Below are positions 17,653-28,375 of a stretch of DNA of 50,337 bases, one piece after another. The translations under genes were made by a program, and so were the position numbers. The notes beneath the pieces are model-generated. The model did no database searches. It had not been told where the DNA came from and worked only from the letters and a program-made list of their open reading frames with translations. Source of the stretch: Phycisphaerales bacterium (GTDB taxonomy: Bacteria; Planctomycetota; Phycisphaerae; UBA1845; Fen-1342); assembly GCA_003162245.1 (NCBI GenBank), contig PMMM01000200.1, positions 4,221 to 54,557 on the forward strand, read 5' to 3'. Within the stretch, counting starts at the first letter, position 1, and each line of letters starts with the position of its first letter.

Positions 17653-18030
17653 ATGCGTGAAGGCGTCGTCATCGTCGTCCAGCGTGCCGACCGCTACCTC
17701 ATCATCCGCCGCGCCTCTGCCGTCATCGCCCCCGGCGCCTGGTGCTTCGTCGGCGGCGGAATCGAGCCCGGCGAAACCCAGGAGCAGGCCGTCGTTCGCG
17801 AGTTCCGCGAAGAGGTCGGCGGCGAGGTCCGCCCGCTCGCCCGCGTCTGGGAATACACCCGCCCCGACGGCTCGCTGCGCCTCTACTGGTGGCGTGCCGA
17901 CCTCGTCGGCGACAAGCTGGAATGCAACCCTGCCGAGATCGCCGAGCTCCGCTGGCTCACCCCCGGCGAAATCCTGACCCTCCCCAACCTCCTCGACGGC
18001 AACCGCGCCTTCCTCGCCACGCTCCGCTGA
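17653..18030 (+). CDS. Nudix hydrolase
   Basis: 125 residues starting at ATG 17653 (a TTG one codon earlier is possible). The full Nudix box GX5EX7REUXEEXGU is present at residues 35-57, with the metal-binding REFREEVGG core. The protein is the minimal size for the superfamily, with no extra domain to tell the substrate; nucleoside diphosphate derivatives are the typical substrates. It is cytoplasmic with no signal peptide. The serpin gene starts 140 bases downstream on the same strand, but nothing links the functions. Upstream DNA (17600-17650) reads tttgtgcccttggtgtcctt, which looks like a degenerate repeat. Confidence 0.85.
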   Translation: MREGVVIVVQRADRYLIIRRASAVIAPGAWCFVGGGIEPGETQEQAVVREFREEVGGEVRPLARVWEYTRPDGSLRLYWWRADLVGDKLECNPAEIAELRWLTPGEILTLPNLLDGNRAFLATLR

Positions 18031-18060
18031 TCAGAGCCCCGAGCGCAAGCGAGTGGGTTT
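18031..18060 (+). repeat. Possible planctomycete interspersed element
   Basis: The stretch ccccgagcgcaagcgagtgg just after the Nudix stop resembles short GC-rich elements of the GAGCGCAAGCGAG type that I recall as abundant in Planctomycetota. Only one copy is seen in this window, so the call rests on recollection. Confidence 0.3.
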
Positions 18061-18170
18061 CCGCAAAACGTCGCGCGCGCCAGCCAGCGGTTTCCCTCAG
18101 CGCCGTCGCCCGATACCATGACGCCTCGGCGTCCGACGAACGGGAAATCTCGGGCAAAAGGCGGTTTACG

Positions 18171-19481
18171 ATGAAACTCTATCCTTCGCCGTCTGCGGCC
18201 GTTCTGCTTGTGCTCGTCTTTGCCCTGAACCGCGCGTCGGCACTGGGCGGCCAGCCAGCGGTGCCGGCCGCGCCGGGCAAGGAGGTCAAGGGCGAGAAGG
18301 CCCGCGTCTCGGCGCCGCACGTGCCGCCGGCTGACCTGAAGGAGCTGACCGCCGGCAACCGCGCGTTCGGCCTCGAGCTCTACCAGTCGCTGCGCGCCGC
18401 GCCGGGCAACCTGTTCCTCTCGCCGCACAGCATCTCCGCCGCACTGGCGATGACCTATGCCGGTGCACGCGGGCAGACCGCCGCCGAGATGGCCAAGATG
18501 CTGCACTTCGCCTTGCCGGCGGAGCGGCTGCATCCGGCGTTCAACGGTCTGGACATCGAGTTGGCCAGCCGGGCTGGGCCCACGACCGGCGCGGCGCGCG
18601 ACCCGGTGCGCCTGTACATCGTCAACCGCTTGTGGGCGCAGACCGGGTTCGCGTTCCTCCCCGCCTTCTTGGACGTGGTCGGCGAGAACTACGGCGCCGG
18701 CGTGAGCCTGCTGGACTTCGCCACCGCCACCGAGGAGTCGCGGCAGGCGATCAACGAGTGGGTCAGCCAGGCCACCGAGCACAAGATCGAGGAACTGCTG
18801 CAGCCGGGGATCGTGCGACGCGACACGCGGCTAGTGCTGACCAACGCGGTGTACTTCAAGGCCCCCTGGGAGCTGCCGTTCGCCAAAGAGCTGACCAAGC
18901 CGTTGCCGTTTCACCCGTTGACCGGGTCGCCGTTCGACGTGCCCATGATGCAACAGCAGCAGCACTTTCTCTACGCCAAGGGCGACGGGTTCCGGGCGAT
19001 CCAGCTTGGTTACGGCGACGGCGAGCTGGCGATGCTGGTCGTAGTCCCCGACGCGGGGCAGTTCGGACGGATCGAGTCGTCGCTCAGCGCCGAGCGGCTG
19101 GCGGCGACGATCCGCGGCTTGCAACACGAGCAAGTGCGGCTGGCTCTGCCCAAGTTCACGTTCACCAGCAGCTTCGAGCTGAAGGCGGCGCTGATCGCGC
19201 AAGGCATGACGACGGCCTTCGGCGAGCGGGCGGATTTCTCCGGCATGACGGGAAAACGCGACCTGGCCATCGACAAGGTGGTCCACAAGGCGTTCGTGCT
19301 GGTGGACGAGACCGGCACCGAAGCCGCCGCCGCGAGCGCGGTACTCATGGGCCCGACGGGTGCGGTGCCGTCGCGGGAACCGGTCGTGCTGACGATCGAC
19401 CGTCCGTTCCTGTTCTTCATCCGCGACGTGCAGACGGACACGGTCCTGTTCGTCGGCCGCGTGGTGAATCCCAAGGAATAG
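18171..19481 (+). CDS. Exported serpin (serine protease inhibitor)
   Basis: 436 residues from ATG 18171, which starts a signal peptide (1-25, ending ASA). The open frame continues upstream over the Nudix gene, but that part is out-of-frame shadow. The serpin core covers about 62-436: NLFLSPHSISAALAMTYAGA near the start, LVLTNAVYFKAPWE (breach region), and the C-terminal RPFLFFIRD and VLFVGRVVNP. The reactive-centre hinge DETGTEAAAASAV keeps small residues at P15-P9, typical of inhibitory serpins. Ungapped alignment to antitrypsin puts the P2-P1-P1' residues at about Pro-Thr-Gly, so the target is not obviously trypsin-like. It probably acts in the periplasm or outside the cell. The window also encodes an exported metzincin and an M16 peptidase, neither a serine protease. 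Confidence 0.92.
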   Translation: MKLYPSPSAAVLLVLVFALNRASALGGQPAVPAAPGKEVKGEKARVSAPHVPPADLKELTAGNRAFGLELYQSLRAAPGNLFLSPHSISAALAMTYAGARGQTAAEMAKMLHFALPAERLHPAFNGLDIELASRAGPTTGAARDPVRLYIVNRLWAQTGFAFLPAFLDVVGENYGAGVSLLDFATATEESRQAINEWVSQATEHKIEELLQPGIVRRDTRLVLTNAVYFKAPWELPFAKELTKPLPFHPLTGSPFDVPMMQQQQHFLYAKGDGFRAIQLGYGDGELAMLVVVPDAGQFGRIESSLSAERLAATIRGLQHEQVRLALPKFTFTSSFELKAALIAQGMTTAFGERADFSGMTGKRDLAIDKVVHKAFVLVDETGTEAAAASAVLMGPTGAVPSREPVVLTIDRPFLFFIRDVQTDTVLFVGRVVNPKE

Positions 19482-21121: not shown

Positions 21122-21325
21122 TGCCCCAGCTCCTCTATGCTCCGGATGATGTCATTCCCAAGGTCGCGAGCAAATACATCTAGTGCCGTGCGACGCCGCT
21201 GTCAAGCCGTGCTCAGGGCTTCATGCGCCGCCCGTCACGCAACGTCCGGTAGTTCCCCGATCAACTCGTGACGGCTCCCGCGCACCGGCACCGCACAGGC
21301 CTCGGCCCCGCGGCGACGCAGCACG

Positions 21326-21467
21326 GCAGCCGCGTGGAAGCGACGAGGCGTTCCAGCACGCCGCGCCGGGTCGCACTATCACTGCGGCCAGCCGCTACAC
21401 GCGGAACGTACGCTCCTCGGCCACGCGTGCAGAGCGCGCGACGCACCGCCGCGATCTGCTCGCGCTC
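21326..21467. repeat. Left copy of 145-bp direct repeat flanking a membrane-protein gene
   Basis: About 80 percent identical by eye to 22933-23078 in the same orientation; shared blocks include gccgcgtggaagcgacg, ccgggtcgcactatcac and caccgccgcgatctg. On the minus strand it encodes TEREQIAAVRRALC, a decayed version of the GCS2 C-terminal peptide. Confidence 0.65.
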
Positions 21468-21475
21468 CGTACCGC

Positions 21476-21534: not shown

Positions 21535-22860
21535 CTACGGCGACTTCCGGCCGAACCAAGGAATGAACTCACTGAGTGACCGAAGCGCCTCTGTCTTGGC
21601 GCGGAACGAAGGATCGAGCCACAGCAGCGCCGAGACTACTAGCCACAGCAGTGCGGCCACCACCGCGACATCGTGGAGACCGGTGGAGAACCCGAGACCG
21701 ACCGCGCGCAAAGCGACCAGTGCGCCAAGGGGCAGCACGGCGATGCCGAGCGCACAACTGGCGTGCCAGACGCGAGAGTACCACTTGGGCGCGACAGAAG
21801 CCGACATGTCGAGACGCTCCAGAGCGTCCCAGTTGCCAGTAGCTGCGCACAGTAGGCTTTGAGCCAATCGATGCAGCAGGTCGCGCCGGGTACCGTCTCT
21901 CGGCATGCAAACCCATTTCTTTAGTTCGCGAAAGCTCTGGGCAAGGCGGACCGACTCCTGCCGAAGCCAGGCGTCGGTCGTCGGGTCACCAGCGCGCAAC
22001 CGCGCCGGCCGGAAATGCTCAAGCAGCAAAGCAATGTCCTCCAGGAGGTCGACCAAACGGGCCTGCAAGCCGACCTGACCCCACCCACGCTCGCGCGTTT
22101 CGATCGTAAACAGCAACCAGACCAGACGGTCAACAATGCGTAGATCCGGGCGCGCGCGATTGAGTCGCCAGTCTGCCCACCACCCCTCGAGCATAAGAGC
22201 GGGGAGAGTCACCACTAGGCACGCCCACCCAACTGCAACCAGCGCCGCGAGGTAGCCACCAGGCAAGACGAGGAAGTCCCACCAGAACGTGGTAAGGTGG
22301 TGTCGCCAGTACCAAGTCCACCAGGCGATCGCAAGGGCGACAACGAGCCCGGGCCATGCGCAGAAGGCCAGCAACAATTCTCGAAACGTGATGCGGCGCG
22401 CTCGATGGTTGAGCAATACCAACGGCCCGAAGAGAAGGACGAATGCGCCGACGGTAACCGCCGGGGCTATCCAGGTTGCTCTTCGTGCCCCTGCGGCGGG
22501 CCCGAGCACGTACAGGAGGGCAGTCGCCAAGCCCGCCCCGCTGATCATCCCAATCCAGAACCAGAATCTAGGACCGCTGAGCCAGGCCCGTTGACGATGC
22601 GCGGCGGCTGCGCGGACGCACCGCCGGACTCTCAGCTTCTCCTGCGCCGAAAGGGACGTCAGGCTGGCAAAGACCTCCATTGAAGCGCGGGTCCTCGCCC
22701 GCAGCTCGCGCCAGCCGCCTTGCCGCGGGAGGCGATGCAACGGTGCGCGGACTGCCCAGCTGACCGCTGACGTGACCCAGCGCGCCACACGGATCCCCAA
22801 CGACAGCAGAGCAACGAGTCCCTTCGACGCGTTGGCGAACGCTGCTCTGACGTCCCACAT
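21535..22860 (-). CDS. Multi-pass membrane protein of unknown function
   Basis: 441 residues. ATG 22860 is preceded by AGGAGGG seven bases upstream; the open frame reaches 23037, but that part lies in the direct repeat and is not coding-like. An amphipathic, basic N-terminal region (1-95) is followed by four hydrophobic segments (about 98-118, 127-149, 160-182, 193-222), a soluble mostly helical region (about 225-360, with RLVDLLEDIALLLEHF), then two more hydrophobic segments (about 370-415). I do not recognise the family and see no catalytic motif. The gene is bracketed by direct repeats at 21326-21467 and 22933-23078, so it may have been inserted or duplicated into the 3' flank of the GCS2 gene. 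Confidence 0.65.
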   Translation of the reverse strand: MWDVRAAFANASKGLVALLSLGIRVARWVTSAVSWAVRAPLHRLPRQGGWRELRARTRASMEVFASLTSLSAQEKLRVRRCVRAAAAHRQRAWLSGPRFWFWIGMISGAGLATALLYVLGPAAGARRATWIAPAVTVGAFVLLFGPLVLLNHRARRITFRELLLAFCAWPGLVVALAIAWWTWYWRHHLTTFWWDFLVLPGGYLAALVAVGWACLVVTLPALMLEGWWADWRLNRARPDLRIVDRLVWLLFTIETRERGWGQVGLQARLVDLLEDIALLLEHFRPARLRAGDPTTDAWLRQESVRLAQSFRELKKWVCMPRDGTRRDLLHRLAQSLLCAATGNWDALERLDMSASVAPKWYSRVWHASCALGIAVLPLGALVALRAVGLGFSTGLHDVAVVAALLWLVVSALLWLDPSFRAKTEALRSLSEFIPWFGRKSP

Positions 22861-22932
22861 CGCGAGCCCTCCTGAGCCTGCGGCAGGCAGCCCCGGCCCG
22901 GCGCCAGACTGGGCCCCACGCCGCCGAAACAC

Positions 22933-23078
22933 GCAAGCCGCGTGGAAGCGACGGCAACATTCTACCACGGCGCGCCGGGTCGCACTATCACTTGTGCCAG
23001 CAGCTACGCGTGGAACATCCGCCCCTCGGCCAGGCACGCGCAGAGCGTGCGATACACCGCCGCGATCTGTTCGCGCTC
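22933..23078. repeat. Right copy of 145-bp direct repeat, overlapping the GCS2 3' end
   Basis: Partner of 21326-21467. Its right half is the last 25 codons of the GCS2 gene (EREQIAAVYRTLC ...); its left half is the intergenic DNA downstream of that gene and upstream of the membrane-protein start. Confidence 0.65.
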
Positions 23079-24317
23079 GGTCGGCCTACCTGGAGGGGTT
23101 TCAGCATGAGCACCCCGCGGCTCGGCAGGAGCCTCGCCCTCCCGGTTGACGCCTGGCGCGCCGCCCAACGCCTTGAGAATGCGCCGTGCCAGGCAACCCT
23201 CGTGGAGAATGACCTTCAGCGGCGCGAATTCGCGCGACTCGCGCTCCGCCGGCGTCAGCACCGTTTCGGCCAGGTGTTGCCATAGGGTGCCCGCCGTGCA
23301 GCGTTTCGGCTCCGTCAGCCCGAATTGGCGCAGATAGTCCTCGTCGGCGACGACCGCCTGATCGCCCTCCTCGATGGTCGCGAGAAAGACCTCCTCCAGC
23401 GGCGTCACGGGCCAGTTGCACTGCTCGACGAACGGCGTCCACCGCTCCGCCACCAGCGCCCGCAGCACGGCGACCACCAGCCGCAGAATCGCCAGGTCGG
23501 CCTGCGGGCACTCCTGGATATCCAGCACGCGAATCTCGATCGTGTCCCGCTCGAACCGCGGAATCGCCCCGCGCGCGTTGGCCCACTCCTCCTGCAAGAT
23601 CCCCTCCGGATCGTGCGGCGCCAGATCGCGGTAGATCTTCTGCAGAATCCGCTCCTGATAATCCCGCGGCGTAAACACCGGCTCCGGGATCACGTGCCCG
23701 GCGACCGACGGAATCCGCCGCGAGTTTGAGCGATACACTTCCAGCCGCGTATCCGCCACGCCGGTCGGATGCCCGTCCACGATCGGCGAGCTGGCGGCCA
23801 GCGCCGGCAGGATCGGCAGCGCGAGCCGAATCGCCGCGTGCAGCCGCCCGAACTCCTCGTCGCCGCAGAACGGCAGGTTCAGGTGCGACGACTGCAGGTT
23901 CGCCCAGCCGTGCCCCTTGCAGTTGAAGATCCGGTCGAATGCGGCGTACACCGGGCTACAGTCATGCGGCCAGAGCTTCGTCTCGGTGAGCGGGTCCATC
24001 CACGGGTGCATGCCCGTGGGCATGAGCTGTCCGCCGCGCGGCGCGAGGAGCTCGTTCATCCGCCGCACGTCGCGCTGGAAGTACTCGGCGAGCCCGTCGA
24101 AGGAAGCCGCGGGCCCGGTGCTCTTGAGCTCGATGACGTGCAGGACCAGCTCGTTCGACCAGGTCAGTTCGCCTGAATCTACGTCCGCGGTGTACTTCCC
24201 CGCGGCGGCGCGCAGAAGCTCGTCCGCCGCCGGCAGCACCGCGAGCCGCTCGCGGTCCACCAGCATGTACTCCAGCTCGACGCCGACGCGTTCGAAGAGG
24301 TGAAACGCACTACTCAT
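23004..24317 (-). CDS. Glutamate-cysteine ligase family (GCS2-type) amidoligase
   Basis: 437 residues. The N-terminus FERVGVELEYMLVDRERL is the GCS2 nucleotide/metal-binding strand, followed by ELKSTGP, the GWANLQSSHLNLPF signature with the conserved His, and the FERDTIEIRVLDIQECPQAD block. GCS2 enzymes form gamma-glutamyl amide bonds with ATP. Here the substrate is probably not simply cysteine, because the gene is third in a C39 peptidase - ATP-grasp ligase - GCS2 operon; it overlaps the ligase gene by ATGA (24314-24317). Near the C-terminus, NREGEAPAEPRG is encoded by a short interspersed element inserted in frame between ILKALGG and the normal-looking end EREQIAAVYRTLC. The last 25 codons lie in a direct repeat. 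Confidence 0.85.
   Translation of the reverse strand: MSSAFHLFERVGVELEYMLVDRERLAVLPAADELLRAAAGKYTADVDSGELTWSNELVLHVIELKSTGPAASFDGLAEYFQRDVRRMNELLAPRGGQLMPTGMHPWMDPLTETKLWPHDCSPVYAAFDRIFNCKGHGWANLQSSHLNLPFCGDEEFGRLHAAIRLALPILPALAASSPIVDGHPTGVADTRLEVYRSNSRRIPSVAGHVIPEPVFTPRDYQERILQKIYRDLAPHDPEGILQEEWANARGAIPRFERDTIEIRVLDIQECPQADLAILRLVVAVLRALVAERWTPFVEQCNWPVTPLEEVFLATIEEGDQAVVADEDYLRQFGLTEPKRCTAGTLWQHLAETVLTPAERESREFAPLKVILHEGCLARRILKALGGAPGVNREGEAPAEPRGAHAETPPGRPTEREQIAAVYRTLCACLAEGRMFHA
23118..23142 (-). repeat. Short interspersed element (GEAPAEP type) inside the GCS2 gene
   Basis: The minus strand reads GGAGGGCGAGGCTCCTGCCG followed by AGCCG, with an internal GGCTC/GAGCC mini-hairpin. It is read in frame as REGEAPAEP within the ligase gene. 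A second copy in opposite orientation lies at 21476-21501. Confidence 0.6.
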
Positions 24318-25789
24318 GGGGTCCCCGGTGCGGCGCCGTTTTTCTTCTTCTGAATGCGCGTCAGAAACACGCGCATGATGCGGTCGTACAGGTCGTCGCC
24401 GAGCAGGAGGTCGTCATAGCCGGCGTCGACGTTCGGGTTGTCGTTGATCTCCATCAGGTAGGCCTTCTTCCCGAACTGCTTCACGTCGACGCCGTAGAAC
24501 CCGTCGCCGATCAGCCGCGCGGCCCGCACGCCGGTGCTGAGCACCGTCCGCGGCACGAGATCGAGCGGCACGGGCTCGACGTTGCCCCACTGCTCACGGT
24601 GTCCGACCATGCGCACGACCTGCCAGTGCCCGTCCGCCATGTAATACCGGCAAGCGAACAGCGGCTCGTTGTCGAGGACGCAGATGCGCCAGTCGTATGG
24701 GGTGGGGACGTACTCCTGCGCGATGACGAGGTCGGATTTCTCGAGCAGGCGCTCGATTGCCTGGTCGAGATGATCCTGCTCCTCCGTGCGGAAGACGCCC
24801 TGCGAAAACGAGCTGTCCGGCTCCTTCAGAATGCACGGCAGGCCGATCTCCGCGTGGATGCGGTCCTTGTTGTCGCGGTGGACGATCATCGTGCGCGGCG
24901 TCGGAATGTCGTGCCGCGCCATGAGCTCCGCGACGTAGACCTTGTTGCTGCACTTGGCGATCGACTCCGGATCGTCGATGACGACGAGGCCCTCGGCGGC
25001 CGCCCGCCGGGCAAACCGGTAGGTGTGGTGGTTGACCGCCGTCGTCTCGCGAATGAACAGCGCGTCGAACTCCGCCAGCCGGCCGAAATCCTCGCGTTTG
25101 ATCAGCTCGGCCCCCAGCCGCAGCCGCTTGGCCGCCTGCGCGAACCGCCCGAGCGCGCGGCGGTTCGACGGCGGCCGCTCCGCGGTCGGATCAAAGAGGA
25201 TCGCGAGGTCGTACTGCGTGGTCGCGCGGCGCAGCCGTGGCAGCCGGCTCTGGGCGAAGAAGCGCGACGCGGAATCCACCACGAAATCCTGGTGCGACTC
25301 CGGAATCTCGTTCGCCGCGATCGGCCCGACGCTGTCGACCTTCCACACTCCGTCGTCGCAGATGAACTCCGCCCGCAGCAGCGGCGCCTGGAACAGCCGA
25401 AACAGCCGGGAGCTCAGCTCCTCGTAGCGCTTGGCCAGGTTGCGCCCGAAGTAGATGCTCAGCGTGAACTTGCTCGTCTTCACCGGCCGCAGGTTGCGCT
25501 CCATCACGTCTTCGAGGTCCTCGGCGACGATGCGGACGATCGAGACCGTCTTCATGTCCTGGATCGTCATGATGCTCGGGAACGCCTTGTGCCCCCGCGC
25601 CGTCGCCAGCAGCGACACGTAGTACCCCGTGCTCTGGTACCGGTACGACCGGCACAGGTTGAACACCTTCAGGTTCCGCAACTCGCTGTACTGCGGATCC
25701 GTCAGGTAATCCCGGGCGGCGATGATCGGCACGTCCGGGATCTTCAGCGGCCACGTCTTCAAGCTATCCACAACGATCAGGTTGGGCAC
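24314..25789 (-). CDS. RimK-type ATP-grasp ligase with RLAN N-terminal domain
   Basis: 491 residues. The first 200 or so residues (LIVVDSLKTWPLKIPDV ... KVFNLCRSYRYQSTGYYVS) match what I know as the RLAN domain found before some RimK-like ligases. The ATP-grasp part runs from about 255 to 480, with CILKEPDSSFSQGVF (nucleotide loop), EYVPTPYDWRI, and the metal-binding EINDNPNVDAG near the C-terminus. Such enzymes ligate an amine to a carboxylate via an acyl phosphate, often adding amino acids to peptides or proteins. The gene starts 1 base after the C39 gene ends and overlaps the GCS2 start, so the three are almost certainly one transcript with coupled translation. The product is unknown. Confidence 0.88.
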   Translation of the reverse strand: MPNLIVVDSLKTWPLKIPDVPIIAARDYLTDPQYSELRNLKVFNLCRSYRYQSTGYYVSLLATARGHKAFPSIMTIQDMKTVSIVRIVAEDLEDVMERNLRPVKTSKFTLSIYFGRNLAKRYEELSSRLFRLFQAPLLRAEFICDDGVWKVDSVGPIAANEIPESHQDFVVDSASRFFAQSRLPRLRRATTQYDLAILFDPTAERPPSNRRALGRFAQAAKRLRLGAELIKREDFGRLAEFDALFIRETTAVNHHTYRFARRAAAEGLVVIDDPESIAKCSNKVYVAELMARHDIPTPRTMIVHRDNKDRIHAEIGLPCILKEPDSSFSQGVFRTEEQDHLDQAIERLLEKSDLVIAQEYVPTPYDWRICVLDNEPLFACRYYMADGHWQVVRMVGHREQWGNVEPVPLDLVPRTVLSTGVRAARLIGDGFYGVDVKQFGKKAYLMEINDNPNVDAGYDDLLLGDDLYDRIMRVFLTRIQKKKNGAAPGTP

Positions 25790-25790
25790 G

Positions 25791-26540
25791 CTATCGTCCT
25801 TTGTCCCGCAGCGCCGGCGCCGGCGCCGATGCCCGCGACGGCTCCAGTATCAGCAGGTCGGCGTCGTGCGTCACGATCCCCAGCAGGATCGCCGCCAGCA
25901 CCCGCTCAATCCCCACCGGGTAAATGTGGATCGCCGACAGCGGGTTCGGCAGCAGCGGGTCCGCCACCAGCACCTGCCGCGTCTCCCGGTCATACCCGCA
26001 CAATACCACGAAATGTCCCTGCGGCTGCCCACGGATGTCGTCCGCGGCACCCAGCGGCCCGAACTCGCGGCTCGTGCGGTGCAGGTACGTCGCGCTGAGG
26101 CCCGTCAGGATCGGTCGCCCGCGGGTCAGGTACTTGCGGACCAGGTGGGCCGTGAGGTCCTCGAGCCGGACGACGCCGCCCAGCGCCAGGAACTCGTCGT
26201 AGCCCTGCATGAACGCCGCCAGCCGCGGATCCTGCTTTTCCGCACAGCGGGCTTGCGCCGTCAGCTTCGCACGCAAATCGACGTCCGGCGACTGAAACCA
26301 CGTCGGGTCGAACACCTGCAAATTGTACGTGTAGATCGTACCCCGATACCCCCGGCGTAACGCGTGACAACCCAGCAGCACCGCGTACGTCCCGCCGTCC
26401 TCCAGCGCCGGCACCTCCGCGATGATCTGTTCCAGACCGATCTCGTCGCCGTAATAGCGATACACCGCGTGCAGGCACGTCGGCCCGCACGTCGTGTCGT
26501 TGGGCTGTGGGAGGATTTCTAGCGGAAGCCGCTCGATCAC
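25791..26540 (-). CDS. C39-like (papain-fold) cysteine peptidase
   Basis: 249 residues if GTG 26540 is the start (VIERLPLEILPQPNDTTCGPT). GTG 26651 would add 37 unconserved residues and would lie only 8 bases from a TATAAT box, leaving no leader. The triad is visible: Q12/C18 in PQPNDTTCGPTC, H176 in QGHFVVLCGYD, and D194 in VADPL. C39 domains cleave double-glycine leader peptides or related substrates. This one stands alone, without ABC-transporter domains or a signal peptide, so it probably acts in the cytoplasm on a product or precursor of the two ligases encoded immediately downstream (gap 1 base). Processing, recycling or transpeptidation are all possible. Confidence 0.8.
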   Translation of the reverse strand: MIERLPLEILPQPNDTTCGPTCLHAVYRYYGDEIGLEQIIAEVPALEDGGTYAVLLGCHALRRGYRGTIYTYNLQVFDPTWFQSPDVDLRAKLTAQARCAEKQDPRLAAFMQGYDEFLALGGVVRLEDLTAHLVRKYLTRGRPILTGLSATYLHRTSREFGPLGAADDIRGQPQGHFVVLCGYDRETRQVLVADPLLPNPLSAIHIYPVGIERVLAAILLGIVTHDADLLILEPSRASAPAPALRDKGR

Positions 26541-26863: not shown

Positions 26864-28138
26864 TTACAGGCACGTTGTCCCGATCACGGCGACGAAGGGG
26901 TCGATGTCGGCGAAGTTGACGTGCTTGTCGTGGTTGCAGTCCGCGTTCAGCCAGGGGCAGTTGGGGTGGTGCATCAGCCAGGCGGATTCACCGACGAGGG
27001 CTTCGACAAACGGGTCGATGTCCGCAAAGGTCACCCGCTTGTCGCAGTTCGTGTCGCCCGTGCACACCTGCGGGCAGGGGTTGGGCAGGCACGTCGTCCA
27101 GTCGCCATGCCAGGTGCCGTGGCACAGCGATTGGTAAAGGACCTGACAAGTTCCGTCGCTGAAGCAGCAGGCCCCCTGAGGCAGGGATTGGCACAGCACG
27201 GGCGTACAAATCACCCCCGGCCCCAGCCACGTGCCGCCGCACTGGCTCTGGGAAGTCATCGTGCAGACCACGCCGACGCAACACGCGCCGGCCGGCGGCG
27301 GGCAGGGGGCCGGCGAGCAGGTCGACCACTCGCCGTGCCACGTTCCCGTGCAGGCGGATTGTAGGACGAGCGTGCAGGACCCATCTGTGAAGCAGCAGGC
27401 GCCGGGCTGGGGGCAGGGGTTCGGCGCGCAGGTTGTGCCCAAGCCGAGCCAAGTGCCGGTGCAGTCGGCCTGAGCGGTGATCCCGCAAGTGCCGTTCGCG
27501 TGGCAGCAGGCGCCGCCGAAGATGAACTGCACGCGCGGTGCCGTGGCGAAACGCGTGCAGCCCGTGCACGTCGTCCAGCTCAGCGGATCGTCGCTGGTGG
27601 AGCAGGTGCAGTTGTTGCAGGCCATCATCAGGCTGCGCAGGCCCGCGGTGGTGTACGTCGTCATGCCGGTTTCGACGCCGGGCGGCGTGAAGCTGTTGTA
27701 CGAGAAGTCCGCGAGGAGATTCACGGGACTGACGGTGGGCGTGTACACGAACGGCGTGCTGAACATGAACGTCTGCCAGCCGGGCGTGATCGGCCGGTTC
27801 GCCTGGTAGCAGAGCGTCCAGCCGGTGTTAATGAACGAGTCGTCGGCGAGGGCCGACAGGCTGGTCTCCTGGAGGCGGACGGTCAGGCTGTCCATCGTGT
27901 ACGAGCCGATCATGTAGCACGACACGCCGACAATCGTGCCGCCATCGCAGGGAAACTCGGAGGCGAGGTAGACGGACATGACGCGCGCATCGCTGGCGAA
28001 GCCGTAGAACGGGTCGCCGGCCGTGCCGTTCAATTCGACCGTGGCGGGGCAGGTGGCGCGTGCGTGCGGCGCGCCAAGCACCAGGGCGGTACACGTGAAA
28101 AGCGTGCGCAACAACGGAGTGATCGGTGACGCTTTCAT
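26864..28138 (-). CDS. Secreted six-cysteine-repeat protein with dockerin-like C-terminus
   Basis: 424 residues from ATG 28138 (AGGAG eight bases upstream; the frame runs further upstream without a signal). The signal peptide is about 1-27. Residues 28-215 form a beta-rich domain with a Cys cluster (CNNCTCS, CTGC). Then come four modules of the CC-x5-C-x7-C type with a shortened third spacing (x10; GACCFTDGSC ... C), separated by Pro. The C-terminus has two calcium-loop segments, GDTNCDKRVTFADIDPFVEA and DCNHDKHVNFADIDPF, each with Asp/Asn at loop positions: a dockerin type I-like pair. It is probably extracellular or attached through a cohesin-like partner, though no cohesin is seen in this window. 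It shares the module with the genes at 1-4102 and 31361-32575. Confidence 0.8.
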   Translation of the reverse strand: MKASPITPLLRTLFTCTALVLGAPHARATCPATVELNGTAGDPFYGFASDARVMSVYLASEFPCDGGTIVGVSCYMIGSYTMDSLTVRLQETSLSALADDSFINTGWTLCYQANRPITPGWQTFMFSTPFVYTPTVSPVNLLADFSYNSFTPPGVETGMTTYTTAGLRSLMMACNNCTCSTSDDPLSWTTCTGCTRFATAPRVQFIFGGACCHANGTCGITAQADCTGTWLGLGTTCAPNPCPQPGACCFTDGSCTLVLQSACTGTWHGEWSTCSPAPCPPPAGACCVGVVCTMTSQSQCGGTWLGPGVICTPVLCQSLPQGACCFSDGTCQVLYQSLCHGTWHGDWTTCLPNPCPQVCTGDTNCDKRVTFADIDPFVEALVGESAWLMHHPNCPWLNADCNHDKHVNFADIDPFVAVIGTTCL

Positions 28139-28168
28139 CTTCCGGGCTCCTGACATCCCCCGGGACAT

Positions 28169-28182
28169 GCCTGAATTCAGGC
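28169..28182. promoter_or_regulatory. Perfect 14-bp palindrome upstream of the dockerin gene
   Basis: GCCTGAATTCAGGC, a perfect inverted repeat 30 bases upstream of the start of the minus-strand gene. Its size and place fit a dimeric repressor site, but there is no second copy in the window. Confidence 0.3.
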
Positions 28183-28375
28183 GCGGGTGCACATAGCGCA
28201 CTGTGGCCGACAGCATTGTGCCGCTGGATGCCACTTTCCGCTCCAGATCCGCGTCCTGCGAAGACCCCGGCCGCGGGATTCTCGCGAGGCTGCCACAGTC
28301 CGTTAATTTACGACAAAAAAGGGCCTAAAGCAACTGGAACCGAGCGGACCCTGGCGCGGCTGACGCGCCGTCCGG

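Follow-up and report, generated by a model that had tools for sequence, protein, structure and literature searches.

The window analyzed here (50,337 nucleotides from a Phycisphaerales bacterium of the phylum Planctomycetota; assembly GCA_003162245.1, contig PMMM01000200.1, positions 4,221 to 54,557 of the forward strand) carries on its minus strand an operon of three intact genes that encode, in order, a C39-like peptidase, a ligase in which an RLAN domain precedes a RimK-like ATP-grasp domain, and a GCS2-family carboxylate-amine ligase. RLAN is an existing Pfam family, and the operon belongs to a described kind of unknown function. Comparison with RLAN loci of other bacteria makes it near certain that the three genes function jointly, and revealed two versions of the system that never share a locus: one with GCS2, often followed by a gene of the N-formylglutamate-amidohydrolase (FGase) family, and one with a GNAT acetyltransferase. 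We tentatively propose that its products form a cytosolic pathway in which a glutamyl-type amide is built, capped, and trimmed on a protein end or a small peptide.

Conservation of the three-gene operon

RLAN genes were detected in 75 of 294 genomes of the window's phylum, compared to 62 of 349 in the phylum of Thiobacillus and 35 of 296 in that of Pontibacter. From the window's phylum, 60 of the 75 neighborhoods were taken; another 80 RLAN loci were drawn from named genomes spanning about a dozen phyla, with some genomes common to both sets. Because the search profiles were built from the genes of the window, highly divergent versions may escape detection. After redundancy removal at 85% identity, 157 distinct RLAN proteins remained from all loci (100 with GCS2).

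Gene order (C39, RLAN, GCS2) and strand were identical in all 102 loci of the combined set that hold the three genes, showing that this arrangement is not due to chance; mean protein identity of the trio homologues was ~50%. Hosts include Planctomycetota, Nitrosomonas, Thiobacillus, Pontibacter, Marivirga, spirochaetes, and Omnitrophota. RLAN and GCS2 are moreover fused, in that order, in five Planctomycetota loci (L072, L073, L074, L076, and L077; Pfam on L074). The first-pass annotation, made from the window alone, had argued from gene spacing that the three products work together, and had named rare co-occurrence of the families and loss of the residues that bind ATP and metal as grounds for abandoning the idea. 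The trio proved to be widespread with a fixed order, the expected catalytic positions are invariant (see below), and the unvarying order and strand together with the fusions uphold joint action. Co-evolution by distance correlation was moderate (r 0.48–0.61) and is not used as an argument.

Two exclusive versions

Of 115 GCS2 loci, 68 have a fourth gene 3' of GCS2 and on its strand, almost always as the very next gene, which Pfam confirmed as FGase (PF05013); the 26 loci of that set that lack GCS2 have none. Among 11 checked genomes with the trio or the RLAN–GCS2 pair but no FGase in the operon, four (including Blastopirellula marina and Nitrosomonas communis) encode an FGase of the same subfamily elsewhere. 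Mapped on the RLAN tree, FGase shows 30 changes between presence and absence among GCS2 loci, implying an optional partner. The search for a conserved fourth gene, suggested by the first-pass annotation, was thus successful in many other genomes but not in that of the window.

When GCS2 is absent, RLAN is usually accompanied by a GNAT acetyltransferase, which is often fused to a C39-like DUF3335 domain and in some loci to RLAN itself. For example, 40 neighborhoods from RLAN-bearing genomes of the Thiobacillus phylum contained GNAT in 39 cases and GCS2 in none. GCS2 (115 loci) and GNAT (54 loci) never occurred in the same locus among a total of 181, and the tree of the 157 RLAN proteins shows only three changes of partner type. 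FGase is tied to the GCS2 version, with none beside GNAT. The exclusivity of GCS2 and GNAT, with so few switches, supports the idea that these two amine-acylating enzymes substitute for each other. This exclusivity and the FGase–GCS2 linkage may be new, although both could already be contained in a 2009 amidoligase study (see below).

Some loci depart from these arrangements. A GNAT domain is fused N-terminal to RLAN in two genomes of the window's phylum (L067 5933–7915; L069 5861–7909), and several Bacteroidota RLAN frames of ~660 codons may be GNAT–RLAN fusions too. In L078–L082, mostly from one family of the window's phylum, the RLAN and ATP-grasp domains lie on two separate adjoining genes, most with GNAT beside them. 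A lone RLAN gene with no C39 or GCS2 beside it is immediately preceded by a transposase-like reading frame (L045 5960–7216). Membrane proteins of the DUF155 (RMND1-like) or a similar type, which recur near RLAN in 14 loci of both versions (e.g., L208 3820–4641 and L056 8363–9556), vary in strand and distance and were rejected as operon parts, as were DUF2817 genes in seven GNAT-type loci, which are too rare or variable.

Family assignments and active sites

Pfam matches were judged against curated cut-offs, and active sites were analyzed in alignments of 16 to 20 homologues per protein. The peptidase matched Peptidase_C39_2 (PF13529; 50.0 bits, cut-off 24), with Gln13, Cys19, His177, and Asp195 (alignment numbering), the Gln-Cys-His-Asp catalytic set, invariant among 16 homologues. 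It is a single-domain protein of 249 residues, without the ABC transporter fusion of bacteriocin-transporter C39 peptidases, in an operon that has no transporter.

In the second protein, the RLAN domain (residues 25–172; 167.7 bits, cut-off 25) is followed by the RimK domain (residues 281–455; 44.2 bits, cut-off 21). Within the ATP-grasp half, Lys322, Arg368, Asp435, Glu447, and Asn449 are invariant across the homologue alignment; the ATP- and metal-binding residues Lys322, Asp435, Glu447, and Asn449 align with those of RimK and LysX, as is proper to an ATP-grasp fold, and an HWQI stretch aligns with HWIT of LysX. The third protein matched GCS2 (PF04107; 95.2 bits, cut-off 21), its best solved match is PDB 1r8g, and Glu14, Glu16, Asn55, Glu56, His60, His104, Gln142, His145, Asn147, Arg191, and Arg263 are invariant in 18 homologues. 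The roles of the invariant residues in all three proteins are those that we assume from general family knowledge and from alignment to solved relatives. Pfam and the retained catalytic residues thus agree with the earlier reading of two amide-bond-forming ligases and one peptidase, and judging from these positions the genes look catalytically intact, with none inactivated.

A putative capping pathway

In the proposed pathway, the RLAN/ATP-grasp ligase would attach an amino acid, which is probably glutamate or a related one, to the carboxylate of a peptide, a protein tail, or a carrier, and the RLAN domain would probably help to hold the carboxylate substrate. GCS2 would then acylate an amine of the ligation product via the glutamyl gamma-carboxylate (the ‘cap’), and the C39-like cysteine peptidase would cut or trim the product. 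The FGase-family enzyme of many other genomes may remove the glutamyl or acyl-glutamate part, and in the sister version GNAT acylation from acyl-CoA would take the place of GCS2 capping. The capping step is proposed mainly because GCS2 and GNAT substitute for each other.

ATP-dependent ligation and peptide cleavage are likely, given the enzyme families; the glutamate donor, the capping role, and the choice between a protein end and a small peptide are guesses, and we regard a protein target and a small-peptide target as about equally likely. That a small peptide or a peptide tag is made and processed, as the first-pass annotation suggested, is plausible; a protein, a peptide, and a free amino acid are all candidate substrates. 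Possibly, although this is doubtful, the loci represent two exclusive versions of a widespread peptide- or protein-capping system with a product undescribed so far, in which the same RLAN ligase and papain-fold peptidase work with either a glutamate cap (GCS2, often with FGase-type decapping) or a CoA-derived acyl cap (GNAT).

Several points weigh against the proposed pathway. The ligase scored far below the rimK_fam cut-off (71.6 vs. 143.4 bits) and the RimK equivalog cut-off (30.3 vs. 331), therefore glutamate specificity is not to be assumed. GCS2 likewise fell below every named subfamily cut-off (YbdK: 53.2/176.4; cyanobacterial GshA: 34.1/249; EgtA: 22.7/371). A search of the window's genome yielded no FGase, so this step is dispensable or was lost there. 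Papain-fold enzymes can be transpeptidases or amidases instead of peptidases, and genetic linkage speaks for joint function, not for the direction of a reaction. Substrate, product, and target are all putative.

Structural models and alternative explanations

The AlphaFold2 model of the peptidase (mean predicted local distance difference test score [pLDDT] 91.9) matched the C39 double-glycine peptidase 6mpz (Z 16.4, root-mean-square deviation [rmsd] 2.1, 136 aligned) about as well as the glutathione-bound primitive phytochelatin synthase Alr0975 (2bu3; Z 16.3, rmsd 2.4, 163 aligned), with the pseudomurein endoisopeptidase PeiR slightly below both (Z 15.1). The phytochelatin synthase match favors a glutathione-like small-molecule pathway, in which gamma-glutamyl-X made by GCS2 is extended with a third residue by the ATP-grasp ligase, and the tripeptide thiol or metal-binding peptide is processed by the papain-fold enzyme. 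GCS2 and ATP-grasp enzymes form the glutathione-synthesis pair of cyanobacteria, and no glutathione synthase (TIGR01380) was found in the window's genome. However, Thiobacillus thioparus and Nitrosomonas communis carry both the trio and a full-scoring glutathione synthase, so that in these two the trio's product is not glutathione, which is thus unlikely as the general product, and plain glutathione synthesis was rejected as a general role on this ground. Both ligases also lie below the cut-offs of the glutathione enzymes (GshA, GshB), and neither FGase nor the exclusive GNAT partner has a place in known thiol synthesis. Overall, we consider a glutathione-like pathway unlikely.

The ligase model (pLDDT 85.9) matched ArgX, LysX, and RimK over residues 193–481 at Z scores of about 25–26 (ArgX 3vpb, residues 193–480: Z 26.2, rmsd 2.5, 268 aligned); the listed matches are confined to the ATP-grasp half, and the RLAN domain itself has none among them. 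We take these three to be ligases that act on protein ends or carriers (ArgX and LysX on LysW; RimK on RpsF), and as the nearest ATP-grasp structures they argue for reversible protein modification. This would be the protein-target form of the proposed pathway, in which glutamyl residues would be put on a cellular protein by the ATP-grasp and GCS2 ligases and taken off again by the peptidase and FGase. In its favor, the operon encodes ligase alongside hydrolase, and GCS2-type operons have no conserved adjoining precursor gene. The action of RimK and RimB on ribosomal protein S6 offers a precedent (PMC11957791), and the arrangement is likened also to tubulin glutamylases and deglutamylases. No target was identified, however, and MptN and other RimK relatives that act on small molecules match nearly as well (63.9 vs. 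71.6 bits); MptN, a small-molecule ligase, is not told apart from ArgX, LysX, and RimK by sequence scores. Protein modification is a candidate to which we give a somewhat low probability.

ATP-grasp ligases and C39-family peptidases are also typical of loci for ribosomally made, graspetide-like peptides (PMC8939145), and the operon could mature such a peptide if the precursor were encoded elsewhere or were too short to notice. When every short reading frame in the 1.2 kb flanking GCS2-type operons on each side was compared, only ends or shadows of the core genes recurred widely; the adjacent precursor expected of such loci was not seen. RLAN loci have no recurrent transporter neighbor, and GCS2 is not known as a graspetide enzyme. 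In the window itself, no precursor, transporter, or methyltransferase adjoins the operon, as had been noted in the first-pass annotation. Peptide maturation of this kind is disfavored, and we think it very improbable.

Returning to the capping pathway, the frequency of RLAN genes across three phyla points to a common bacterial pathway without a known product. Cultured hosts (Blastopirellula marina, Thiobacillus thioparus, Nitrosomonas, and Pontibacter), together with FGase, the GNAT version, and the fusions, make the question testable: if capping takes place as proposed, the products of the two versions should differ by one amide cap.

The operon and other genes of the window

The source of the window is a draft genome (4.76 Mb, 96.8% complete) whose sole GCS2 gene and sole RLAN gene both lie in this operon (Table 1). 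The nearest protein to this RLAN is from Phycisphaerae (62% identity). The peptidase gene runs from a GTG start at 26540 to a TAG stop at 25791 and is separated by a single base from the RLAN start (GTG at 25789), and the RLAN stop and the GCS2 start share an ATGA (24314–24317). Both this spacing and the gene coordinates of the first-pass annotation were confirmed in the sequence.

Table 1 Genes of the operon and the repeat insertion in GCS2
Feature	Position	Strand	Evidence
C39-like (papain-fold) cysteine peptidase, 249 aa, GTG start	25791..26540	-	Pfam PF13529, invariant residues, AlphaFold2 model
RLAN domain + RimK-like ATP-grasp ligase, 491 aa, GTG start	24314..25789	-	Pfam, invariant residues, model
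GCS2-family carboxylate-amine ligase, 437 aa, ATG start overlapping RLAN stop	23004..24317	-	PF04107, invariant residues
In-frame repeat insertion near GCS2 3' end, peptide GEAPAEPRGAHAETPPGRPTE	23080..23150 (approximate)	-	Homologue alignment and repeat search

The repeat insertion sits within the final ~50 codons of the window's GCS2, at a point where homologues run from ...ALG-P straight into the conserved tail. Its 25-base core, GGCTCGGCAGGAGCCTCGCCCTCCC (23119–23143), has 49 copies in the genome (up to two mismatches) vs. none for a reversed control pattern. The 3' end of GCS2 and the DNA beyond it are duplicated ~1.6 kb away (21282–21470 and 22890–23081; 77–87% identity), and the duplicates flank a membrane-protein-like reading frame of 500 aa (21535–23037) without a Pfam match.

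Elsewhere in the window are a bacterial serpin (serine protease inhibitor) with ~200 extra N-terminal residues (17742–19478; 362 bits), a protein that looks secreted, is rich in cysteine, and has GACCxxDGxC repeats and a dockerin-like end but no Pfam match (26864–28234), and a fused chorismate mutase/prephenate dehydrogenase like TyrA of E. coli (28376–29563; 303.7 bits, above the cut-off).

Comparison with known systems

None of the papers in the collection searched contains the RLAN domain names that were tried. Amidoligases were the subject of a 2009 study by Iyer and co-workers, which reportedly predicts a linkage of peptidases with ligases of the ATP-grasp, GCS-like, and acetyltransferase-like kinds. 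Later papers cite this study for GNAT fusions (PMC10318531) and for ATP-grasp ligase families (PMC4431377), and the GNAT–DUF3335 fusion itself is mentioned in PMC10318531.

The RimK/RimB (RimABK) system of Pseudomonas resembles the operon in that a RimK-fold ligase is encoded with a peptidase that reverses its action: glutamates that RimK has added to RpsF are removed by the protease RimB, and the two enzymes can occur as a fusion (PMC11957791). By analogy, this proven case of a RimK-type ligase paired with an undoing protease may serve as a precedent for the pathway, although it has neither GCS2 nor an RLAN domain, and the RLAN enzyme lies below the RimK cut-offs. In structure, the ATP-grasp half is best matched by LysX and ArgX (Z 26), which work with the LysW carrier, whereas the operon has no adjoining LysW-like short gene and its ligase has the extra N-terminal RLAN domain. 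Like glutathione synthesis (GCS2-family GshA with GshB), the operon combines one GCS2 and one ATP-grasp ligase, but its enzymes score far below the cut-offs of either glutathione enzyme, and the system has a peptidase and FGase in addition. YbdK carboxylate-amine ligases have the GCS2 fold, and the window's GCS2 differs from them in its score (53.2 bits vs. the YbdK cut-off of 176.4). Finally, the GNAT–DUF3335 (C39-like) proteins adjoin the same RLAN ligase in the sister version, and their loci differ from the window operon in having GNAT instead of GCS2, with no FGase alongside.

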